DNA of 35,911 nucleotides, from NCBI GenBank assembly GCA_016783155.1, contig JADHXB010000006.1:1-35911 (forward strand), given 5' to 3'. The position numbers were made by a program, and so were the translations under genes. Shown piece after piece: positions 31,830 through 34,627 of this stretch. Each line of letters begins with the position of its first letter. Position 1 is the first letter of the stretch. Under the pieces are notes generated by a model that was given only the letters and a program-made list of their open reading frames with translations, did not search any database and was not told the origin of the DNA. The stretch is from Dehalococcoidia bacterium. Lineage in GTDB: Bacteria; Chloroflexota; Dehalococcoidia; GIF9; UBA5629.

Positions 31830-32339
31830 ATGTACATTAACGTTGCTCAGTTACTCAAGGAACCAACAGGCTCAAGCCGTAGCTTCCAAATAGACGAGAG
31901 CCTTGGTACGGACGACATAAATTCTGTTAAGGGTGAGGTAACCTTAATCCGCACCAATCGCGGTATCATGGCTAAAGCTGAGATGACAGCAGGCGTGACA
32001 GGAATTTGCAGTCGGTGCCTCAAACCGATTGACTATGATGTAAACTATGACTTTAACGAGGAATGTCTCCCTAGCGTAAGTACTTCCGAAGGTTTATCTT
32101 CACCTGATCAGACCGATAATATTAATATAGACGAGAGCCACATGCTGGACTTAAGCGAAATAATACGCCAATATACCTTGCTGACTATGCCGATCAAGCC
32201 GCTTTGCCGTCCAGACTGTGCTGGAATCTGCCCATCCTGCGGACATAACCTTAATCAAGGCTCCTGCCAATGTCCGTCTCATGCCCACGACCAGCGCTGG
32301 TCCAAACTAATCCACTTGGGGAGGGAAAGTAAAACCTAA
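31830..32339 (+). CDS. yceD: DUF177/YceD family protein
   Basis: 169-residue YceD-family protein, linked in bacteria and plastids to 23S rRNA/large-subunit metabolism. Visible motifs are GICSRCLKPIDYDVNYDFNE (first CxxC), LDLSEIIRQYTLLTMPIKPLC, and the Cys-rich end GICPSCGHNLNQGSCQC, likely a zinc site. The stop abuts the rpmF ATG with no gap, the conserved yceD-rpmF pairing. A strong promoter precedes it. Confidence 0.94.
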   Translation: MYINVAQLLKEPTGSSRSFQIDESLGTDDINSVKGEVTLIRTNRGIMAKAEMTAGVTGICSRCLKPIDYDVNYDFNEECLPSVSTSEGLSSPDQTDNINIDESHMLDLSEIIRQYTLLTMPIKPLCRPDCAGICPSCGHNLNQGSCQCPSHAHDQRWSKLIHLGRESKT

Positions 32340-32540
32340 ATGGCGTTACCGAAGAGAAAATATGCAAAATCACGGCAAGGGAAAAGGCGCAGTCACCTCG
32401 CCCTGAGCATCCCTAAACTGGTTGATTGCCCTCAATGCCATGCTCCCAAATTACCTCATCATGTCTGTCCCACCTGCGGTACCTATGCAGGAAGGGAAGT
32501 GATTAAGACTAAGGCCCCAAAGAAAACACCCGGCCAATGA
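32340..32540 (+). CDS. rpmF: Large ribosomal subunit protein bL32, zinc form
   Basis: 66-residue 50S protein. It begins MALPKRKYAKSRQGKRRSHL and has four zinc Cys (C30, C33, C43, C46) in DCPQCHAPKLPHHVCPTC. It immediately follows yceD. In many bacteria rpmF is followed by plsX-fabH-fabD-fabG-acpP; here plsX, fabH and fabG are missing and a 100 nt gap leads to a degenerate FabD. Confidence 0.97.
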   Translation: MALPKRKYAKSRQGKRRSHLALSIPKLVDCPQCHAPKLPHHVCPTCGTYAGREVIKTKAPKKTPGQ

Positions 32541-32599: not shown

Positions 32600-32647
32600 A
32601 TGATTGCCCCCTTAGTGAACTTGAATTACAAGGAGGAAACATGGTAG
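32600..32647 (+). other. Possible 15-codon upstream reading frame overlapping the FabD-like start
   Basis: ATG at 32600 behind GTGAGG opens a short frame MIAPLVNLNYKEETW that stops at 32645-32647, just past the FabD-like ATG at 32641. Its codons contain the AAGGAGG of the next gene. It could couple translation or be chance; nothing identifies a product. Confidence 0.25.
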
Positions 32648-33585
32648 AAGCAATAAAAGTCGCTTATGTTTTCACCGGACAGGAATCTCATTCTGTAGGC
32701 ATGGGTTTAGACCTTTATGTTCATTACTCTTCAGCCAGGGAAGTTTTCGATGAAGTTGACAAAGCTTTGGGTTTCCCTCTGTCGCATCTATGCTTTGAAG
32801 GCCCTGAAGACGACCTCAAGCAGACCGTCAATGTCCAGCCAGCCGTATTAGCCACAAGCATTGCCTGCCTGAGAGCAGCTCAGGAGGTTAGCAACAATGG
32901 CATACCAGAGCCAACCTTCGTCGCTGGACATGACATGGGCACCTACGCAGCTCTGGTAGCTGCTGGTGCTCTCAGTCTGTCTGATGCCGTGCGCTTGATT
33001 CGCGAGAGAGGACGATTAATGAACGAAGCCGGGCAGAGAACAGCCGGCGGCATGGTATCTATGGCCGGCCTGGATATAGAAGTCTTCAAGAACATCTGCT
33101 TCTCCACAGGTGTTGAGATTGCCTATATAGACGCTCCGGACCAGGTCACCATCAGCGGCACTCAGGAAAGCCTGACCAAAGCCAAGAGGCTAGCGCAGAT
33201 AAAAGGGGCTCGCCGCATTATACCCCTAAGAGTAAGCGGGCCTTTCAATTCCTCGCTTATTGAGCCAGCCATAACAAGATTAAGAAATGCCATTTCCGAG
33301 TTTACCTTCAATAAACCATCAATTCCGGTTGTGGCTAATGCTACTGCCCAGCCGCTTACCGACCTGGAAGCGATAAAGGAGGAGCTGGTTAGCCAGATTG
33401 TCCGCCCAGTTCAATGGCAGCAATCTATTGAAAATATGATCGCCCGAGGAGTAACCACCTTCTTTGAGATGGGGCCTGGTGAGGCACTGACCAAGTTGAT
33501 TAAGCGAATCAGCCCCGGAGCACAGACCTTTAACATCAGCAGCGCTCAAACCATCAGTGAAATAACAAGCTGGCGCAGAGGATAA
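32641..33585 (+). CDS. FabD-like (malonyl-CoA:ACP transacylase fold) protein lacking catalytic Ser and His
   Basis: A 314-residue protein with the full FabD fold: YVFTGQESHSVGMG at the start, VNVQPAVLATSIACLRA, RERGRLMNEAG, VTISGTQESLTKAK, VVANATAQPLTD, VRPVQWQQSIE and FFEMGPGEALTKLI. However the nucleophile elbow GHSxG is AGHDMGTYAAL (D98 for Ser92 of E. coli) and the general-base motif FHS is PFNSSL (N203 for His201). The oxyanion Gln (Q14), substrate Arg (R123) and the QW Gln remain. AAGGAGG precedes the ATG. Normal transacylase chemistry should be impossible; a binding, scaffold or changed-reaction role is inferred. The partner candidate is the ACP-like protein at 34370, which has also lost its active serine. 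Confidence 0.9.
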   Translation: MVEAIKVAYVFTGQESHSVGMGLDLYVHYSSAREVFDEVDKALGFPLSHLCFEGPEDDLKQTVNVQPAVLATSIACLRAAQEVSNNGIPEPTFVAGHDMGTYAALVAAGALSLSDAVRLIRERGRLMNEAGQRTAGGMVSMAGLDIEVFKNICFSTGVEIAYIDAPDQVTISGTQESLTKAKRLAQIKGARRIIPLRVSGPFNSSLIEPAITRLRNAISEFTFNKPSIPVVANATAQPLTDLEAIKEELVSQIVRPVQWQQSIENMIARGVTTFFEMGPGEALTKLIKRISPGAQTFNISSAQTISEITSWRRG

Positions 33586-33597
33586 CAACTGGCACAC

Positions 33598-33903
33598 CAT
33601 AATGTATGGGCTGCGCTTAATCAGATTGTTAGAACTCAGGGTGCGAATAGCCAAGATGCTGAAACGCAGCCCACCCTACAGAACCACTACCACCTGTGAT
33701 AACTGCGTCAAGAAATCCACCTTAATCTCCAATGCCCTCAGCCTATTTATCGATTATATCCGTCACGATTTCCAAAAGGTCGACCCACAATCCAGGAAGC
33801 ACATTGTAAATCAAGGCAATTCTTCAACCTGCCACCACAACCACCCAAGGCAAAAAATGGCGTTACTTGCCATCTATGTCTTGAGGAATTAATATCAGAA
33901 TGA
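33598..33903 (+). pseudogene. Decayed or frameshifted small Cys-containing ORF between FabD-like and nusB
   Basis: The 314 nt between FabD-like and nusB has no intact recognisable gene. One frame is open from an ATG at 33602 to 33892 (96 codons, includes TTCDNCVKKS) but has no Shine-Dalgarno and an odd composition. Another frame is open from 33703, lacks any start codon, and ends at 33901-33903 in a 4 nt ATGA overlap with nusB; it reads NLPPQPPKAKNGVTCHLCLE at the end and carries the GAGGAA that serves nusB. The coding look of that end and the CDNC in the other frame suggest a small zinc-ribbon gene broken by frameshift. Identity unknown. Confidence 0.35.
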
Positions 33904-34352
33904 CTGGATTTAGACGTAAGGCCAGGATTATTGCCCTACAAACATTTTACGAGCTTGACTGTTCTACTCACAAGCCGAAGGAGATTCTGACTCGCTTACT
34001 GAAAGAAAAAGCCCTGCCTGATGAAGCCGCCGATTTTACCAGAAGCCTGGTTAACGGGGTTCTTCAGAACAAGAAGGACATAGATGATGTGATTCAAAGG
34101 TTCGCTCCCTCCTTTCCCGTCAATCAAATAGCCACCATAGACAGAAATATTCTCCGCCTTGCCATTTTTGAGATTTTATTCGATAATAGAGTTCCGGTTA
34201 AAGCGGCTATTAATGAAGCCGTTGAGCTGGCTAAGAGTTTTGGTAGTGATGCTTCTAAAAAATTTATCAACGGGGTTTTGGGTTCAGTAGTTACTGCCTG
34301 TATACAGCAAGGGGAACAACAAAAAGGGATTGAGGGAACTGAGCAAGCCTGA
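33900..34352 (+). CDS. nusB: Transcription antitermination factor NusB
   Basis: 150-residue all-helical NusB: RKARIIALQTFYELDCSTHK, FTRSLVNGVLQNKKDIDDVI, IDRNILRLAIFEILFDNRVP, and AAINEAVELAKSFGSDASKK then FINGVLGSVV. With NusE/S10 it binds boxA in rRNA leader transcripts. A C-terminal Gln/Glu-rich tail (from about 137) is extra. GAGGAA lies 11-12 nt upstream of the ATG, and a decayed frame ends in an ATGA overlap with it. It is followed 17 nt later by the ACP-like gene. Confidence 0.96.
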   Translation: MTGFRRKARIIALQTFYELDCSTHKPKEILTRLLKEKALPDEAADFTRSLVNGVLQNKKDIDDVIQRFAPSFPVNQIATIDRNILRLAIFEILFDNRVPVKAAINEAVELAKSFGSDASKKFINGVLGSVVTACIQQGEQQKGIEGTEQA

Positions 34353-34369: not shown

Positions 34370-34627
34370 ATGGCACTCATTTCAGAAAAGCTTAAGAAAA
34401 TGATTGCGGAGCAACTCGGCGTTGACGAGGAATCAATAGAGCCTTCAGCATCCTTCGTTGACGACCTCAATATTGACCCCCCGGATTTAGCCGAGCTTAT
34501 CACAGCCATCGAACAGGAATTCAGCAGGCCGGGACGAAAGCTGGAGATATCAGACGAAGATACCGATAAAATCGTTACCGTTCAGGACCTCATAGACTGC
34601 CTCCACGACTACGGCATAGAAGACTAA
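34370..34627 (+). CDS. Acyl-carrier-protein-like protein without the phosphopantetheine serine
   Basis: 85-residue ACP fold: EKLKKMIAEQLGVDEESIEP, ASFVDDLN, AELITAIEQEF, and LEISDEDTDKIVTVQDLID are very close to AcpP. The site that takes 4'-phosphopantetheine, normally DSL, is D36-P37-P38 (NIDPPDLAEL), so Ser is Pro and the next Leu is Pro. A ~5-residue insertion (RPGRK) sits before the third helix. AGAGGAAA precedes the ATG. The protein cannot be loaded with an acyl chain at the usual place. Helix II, the surface that docks onto partner enzymes, is otherwise kept. It probably works as an unmodified binding protein or is a slowly decaying copy. It is last in the block and converges with the MFS gene. 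Confidence 0.88.
   Translation: MALISEKLKKMIAEQLGVDEESIEPSASFVDDLNIDPPDLAELITAIEQEFSRPGRKLEISDEDTDKIVTVQDLIDCLHDYGIED

Follow-up and report, generated by a model that had tools for sequence, protein, structure and literature searches.

The human mitochondrial transacylase MCAT and the mitochondrial ACP, a pair homologous to the one described here, retain their chemistry, and Escherichia coli AcpP keeps both Ser36 and its carrier role. These proteins also work outside lipid synthesis: MCAT helps to assemble the small ribosomal subunit in human mitochondria (PMC9892005), the mitochondrial ACP is part of the MALSU1 module on large-subunit ribosomal precursors (PMC11452305), and in E. coli the apo-ACP surface does a real job, as apo-AcpP binds and activates MukB, apo- and holo-AcpP stimulate the MukB ATPase alike, and AcpP binds SpoT and IscS (PMC8602292). 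ACP work beyond acyl carrying is hard to test where fatty-acid synthesis (FAS) is essential too, and the Dehalococcoidia family treated here, the GTDB family f1, appears to offer a natural separation of the two. The window is a stretch of 35,911 nucleotides (contig JADHXB010000006.1 of assembly GCA_016783155.1), and its operon has the following features:

31830-32339, forward strand: yceD (DUF177), operon neighbour (Pfam PF02620)
32340-32540, forward strand: rpmF-like gene (ribosomal protein L32), named only by its sequence and its place after yceD; conserved in relatives
32641-33585, forward strand: altered FabD, a malonyl-CoA:ACP transacylase homologue with the nucleophile Ser replaced by Asp and the His by Asn (TIGR00128, motif, tree, selection, model)
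32932-32934, forward strand: residue 98 of the altered FabD, Asp in GHDMG, at the position of the FabD nucleophilic Ser (GHSLG)
33247-33249, forward strand: residue 203 of the altered FabD, Asn in GPFNS, at the position of the FabD catalytic His
33656-33888, forward strand: frameshifted radical-SAM remnant between fabD and nusB (tblastn), in the stretch 33602-33892
33900-34352, forward strand: nusB (rRNA transcription antitermination), operon neighbour (Pfam and TIGR01951)
34370-34627, forward strand: Ser-less ACP, an acyl carrier protein orthologue without the phosphopantetheine Ser, reading DPPD (profiles, orthologues, selection, model)
34478-34483, forward strand: codons CCC (34478-34480) and CCG (34481-34483) for P37 and P38, at the E. 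coli Ser36-Leu37 positions

The Ser-less ACP is encoded by an ORF whose start codon lies 17 bases past the end of nusB and whose product has 85 amino acids. Pfam PF00550 matches it across the entire model (39.9 bits, cut-off 20.8) and the NCBIfam acyl carrier protein model NF002148 scores 78.3 bits (cut-off 71), while the TIGR00517 equivalog, at 65.5, stays below its cut-off of 70.45. It resembles AcpP in fold, length, acidity and operon position, and retains, in E. coli numbering, E41 and E47 of helix II together with F50, I59 and Q71; unlike AcpP, it has Pro for Ser36, has lost Leu37, carries V40 to A and M44 to T, and occurs in a family where AcpS was not found in several members. The motif in the window is NIDPPDLAEL. 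The first-pass annotation had read DPPD in place of DSLD in this gene, which the ORF translation and the codons bear out, and had proposed that the product is unable to carry phosphopantetheine, a view supported by the absence of the attachment Ser. The mutational route that it suggested, from TCC CTG to CCC CCG, is unlikely, position 2 probably being no longer Leu by then: P38 more likely derives from Ser than from Leu, since a congener of the window genome has the codons CCA TCC (DPSD) and the Ser-keeping branch of the family has DSAD or DSSD.

The upstream gene has a comparable history. TIGR00128 recognizes the altered FabD with 282.8 bits (cut-off 260.9), and like FabD it has the whole fold, the oxyanion Gln and an Arg, invariant in 20/20 rows of the FabD alignment, which in FabD binds the malonyl carboxylate. 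In contrast to FabD, the operon proteins of f1, those of genus g12 and genome G029 excepted, carry D or G in place of the nucleophile, often lack the catalytic His too, and have gained an acidic residue after the oxyanion Gln, the position being E or D in 16/16 dead rows of alignment A2 and G in 4/4 intact ones (GQGS to GQ[ED]S). Judged from these residues, the altered FabD is catalytically dead; neither this nor the absence of FAS genes from many f1 genomes had been noticed in the first-pass annotation. The AlphaFold2 models keep both folds, with four helices and a pLDDT of 83.7 for the Ser-less ACP and a pLDDT of 90.5 for the altered FabD, the latter reaching a TM of about 0.9 against solved FabDs. 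The nearest structures to the models are ACP and FabD entries, including the crosslinked FabD-AcpP complex 6u0j, and MCAT (PDB 8csp) was found from the altered FabD both by sequence and by fold.

An ACP match was obtained in 27 of the 30 f1 genomes, 26 of which were taken as having orthologues; G012, whose weak match was to a different ACP, was left out. The first-pass annotation had raised the question of motif conservation, and the loss of Ser proved to be conserved: it was replaced by Pro, rarely by Gly or Ala, in every genus with an orthologue except g12, the forms including DPPD, DPSD, DPED and DPDD, and the two g12 genomes keep it (DSADLAE and DSSDLAE). Outside f1, all 24 of the 24 Dehalococcoidia ACPs compared keep the Ser, mostly as LNADSLDLVELI; in the class as a whole, 370/393 genomes match the family model, and a sample of these was read. 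A plasmid search returned ordinary ACPs only, of less than 60% identity, and the open-access literature searched contained no account of a housekeeping AcpP without the Ser, nor of f1 having lost FAS.

The order yceD, rpmF, fabD, radical-SAM, nusB, acp recurs across f1, and the core of fabD, radical-SAM and acp is shared by loci L128 (G110) and L126 (G151), of the same taxonomic order, so that the Ser-less ACP is a vertical orthologue rather than a stray paralogue. A maximum-likelihood tree groups those operon FabDs of f1 that lack the Ser in one clade (98/93, 23 rows) amid intact operon FabDs; other FabDs of the family, which are intact, belong to separate FAS clusters. The pairing of the two altered proteins is loose: G029 combines a Ser-less ACP with an intact FabD, L126 a Ser-bearing ACP with a FabD reading GHG, and the Ser-less ACP locus of G026 has no altered FabD. 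At that last locus (L066), a 2044-aa ORF on the opposite strand takes the place of yceD, rpmF and fabD, a rearrangement or a chimeric contig.

In relatives, a full-length radical-SAM gene separates fabD from nusB (L064 and L091 match Pfam Radical_SAM there), and the best named match of the remnant in the window is AmmeMemoRadiSam, below cut-off. We rejected the radical-SAM gene as a functional partner because a different family of the order has it beside intact FabD and ACP, and because it has decayed in the window, where the Ser-less ACP and the altered FabD have not. An acp-rnc-smc order that would point to SMC was likewise rejected, as the ORFs past the ACP in L089 look, by eye, uracil-DNA-glycosylase-like and RNase-J-like.

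The remaining FAS genes are unevenly kept. FabF exceeded the cut-off in 12/30 f1 genomes against strong matches in 53/54 other genomes of the order, the lone exception being 68% complete; AcpS was found in 14/30 and PlsX in 17/30 (E 0.001). Neither FabF, AcpS nor an intact FabD was found in 14 f1 genomes (G001, G002, G005-G010, G015, G017, G019, G020, G027 and G028), absences that rest on completeness estimates, most of the genomes being MAGs. Among those 14, G002, G005, G007, G010, G019 and G020 are at least 92% complete (92-98%), G005 with 8% contamination; in G005 the altered FabD ends near a contig edge past which the ACP would lie, and in the other five the Ser-less ACP is the sole PP-binding match. 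The first-pass annotation had held that a genome with no other ACP would imply an assembly error, which fails on these relatives, where it is the absence of the remaining FAS genes that leaves the Ser-less ACP on its own. In the window genome, a 77%-complete MAG, FabF was not found by profile over cut-off. Its one AcpS lies on contig 9 close to another, small ACP that has the Ser (L125, positions 70000-84542 of that contig in G000) whose neighbouring ORFs look, by eye, CoA-transferase-like, acyl-CoA-ligase-like, kinase-like and phosphotransacetylase-like; with no FAS genes seen beside it, this second PP-binding match was rejected as a FAS carrier. An ACP also adjoins AcpS on contig 14 of G021.

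As for lipid supply, PlsY was found in 30/30 f1 genomes and FakA in 27/30, and because both remain where FAS was not found, the gene content suggests that the FAS-less lineages scavenge fatty acids, as has been described for sediment Dehalococcoidia (PMC11650866). That a widespread family of Dehalococcoidia is likely to be auxotrophic for fatty acids is interesting by itself. Archaeal-type lipids as a replacement of FAS were rejected, no PcrB/GGGPS match over cut-off being found in f1. Most f1 genomes have several matches to PlsY-family acyltransferases, with up to 11 in G029, which is unusual for a normally single-copy gene.

An artefact is one explanation for the DPPD motif, the window genome being a fragmented MAG (1.45 Mb, 77% completeness). 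We give an assembly or sequencing error practically no credence, however, as the same codons occur in a contig of another assembly (L063, JACNGQ010000207.1), and the remaining orthologues of the family outside g12 also lack the Ser; the situation that the first-pass annotation had named as fatal to its reading, DSL in the relatives and a unique copy in the window, is not what the family presents. L063 is 99.6% identical to the window DNA over 2002 bp and is filed in a MAG labelled Planctomycetota, and is therefore probably mis-binned. A second deflationary explanation is that both genes are decaying relics of a FAS since lost and hitch-hike between rpmF and nusB; in its favour are the decay of the radical-SAM gene between them in the window and an in-frame TAG in the Ser-less ACP gene of G016. 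This explanation is largely refuted, and we consider it very improbable. By the simple counting method of Nei and Gojobori applied to close genome pairs, dN/dS was 0.04-0.12 for the Ser-less ACP and 0.03-0.17 for the altered FabD in informative pairs, within the range of rpmF, nusB and yceD; a value of 0.45 for the ACP in G007-G009 comes from four changes, too few to read. Both genes are under purifying selection. The values are equally low, far under 1, in pairs with no detectable FAS (G019/G020, G027/G028 and G007/G010), the ORFs remain open in nearly all genomes, and the loss is common to a clade and hence not recent.

Since both proteins are dead yet conserved, even where no FAS genes were found, they probably have another, structural job, and we hold it likely that the Ser-less ACP and the altered FabD are a former FAS pair retained for a carrier-independent protein-protein role. 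According to this proposal, both trace back by vertical descent to the AcpP and FabD that serve housekeeping in Dehalococcoidia, and have lost carrier and transferase chemistry in most of f1 (Ser to Pro, rarely Gly or Ala; FabD nucleophile to Asp or Gly, with the His often gone). Lipid synthesis was then probably taken over by another FAS cluster, which had a Ser-bearing ACP of its own, so that the old pair was freed, and several lineages would later have lost FAS entirely, probably living by scavenging, with the two proteins kept for their other role; the order of these events is our reconstruction. Purifying selection would have maintained the genes for another function of both proteins, original or later acquired, for which their folded surfaces suffice. 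The Ser-less ACP would be, as the first-pass annotation had suggested, an apo-only protein-protein adaptor; it is strongly acidic and would act most likely together with the altered FabD, to which it presumably binds, and the role of the pair is probably structural or regulatory. Any partner of the pair would reveal a phosphopantetheine-independent role.

Two further readings of that role follow the described systems. In a more specific form of the proposal, the altered FabD would bind immature rRNA and the Ser-less ACP would be placed in a subunit adaptor module, as in human mitochondria. The operon neighbours yceD, rpmF and nusB agree with the mitochondrial precedents cited above, and yceD has been connected with 23S rRNA accumulation (PMC5049393); what links the present pair to the ribosome, in contrast to the human pair, is gene neighbourhood. 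Relatives whose FabD and ACP are intact share this gene order, which therefore predates the loss of chemistry, and for that reason we judge a ribosomal role improbable. It is accordingly doubtful, if attractive, that the loss of FAS laid bare a carrier-independent role of FabD and ACP in bacterial ribosome assembly, with the dead pair left in the yceD-rpmF-nusB operon. Alternatively, the Ser-less ACP could serve an SMC-type ATPase, SpoT/RSH, IscS or another of the common moonlighting partners of ACP, with the altered FabD kept for a separate reason. The E. coli interactions make this conceivable, but it leaves unexplained why a dead FabD is kept beside the Ser-less ACP in nearly all genomes, and we regard it as unlikely. 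Besides the retained pair, which we continue to favor, another unusual ACP was seen in the class: in G130, of family f22, an ACP domain (DSSDLAELI) lies in frame within a BamB-like beta-propeller protein (L137, 3921-5351), which may be a genuine insertion of the domain or an assembly error, and the same genome has a normal ACP elsewhere (L138).
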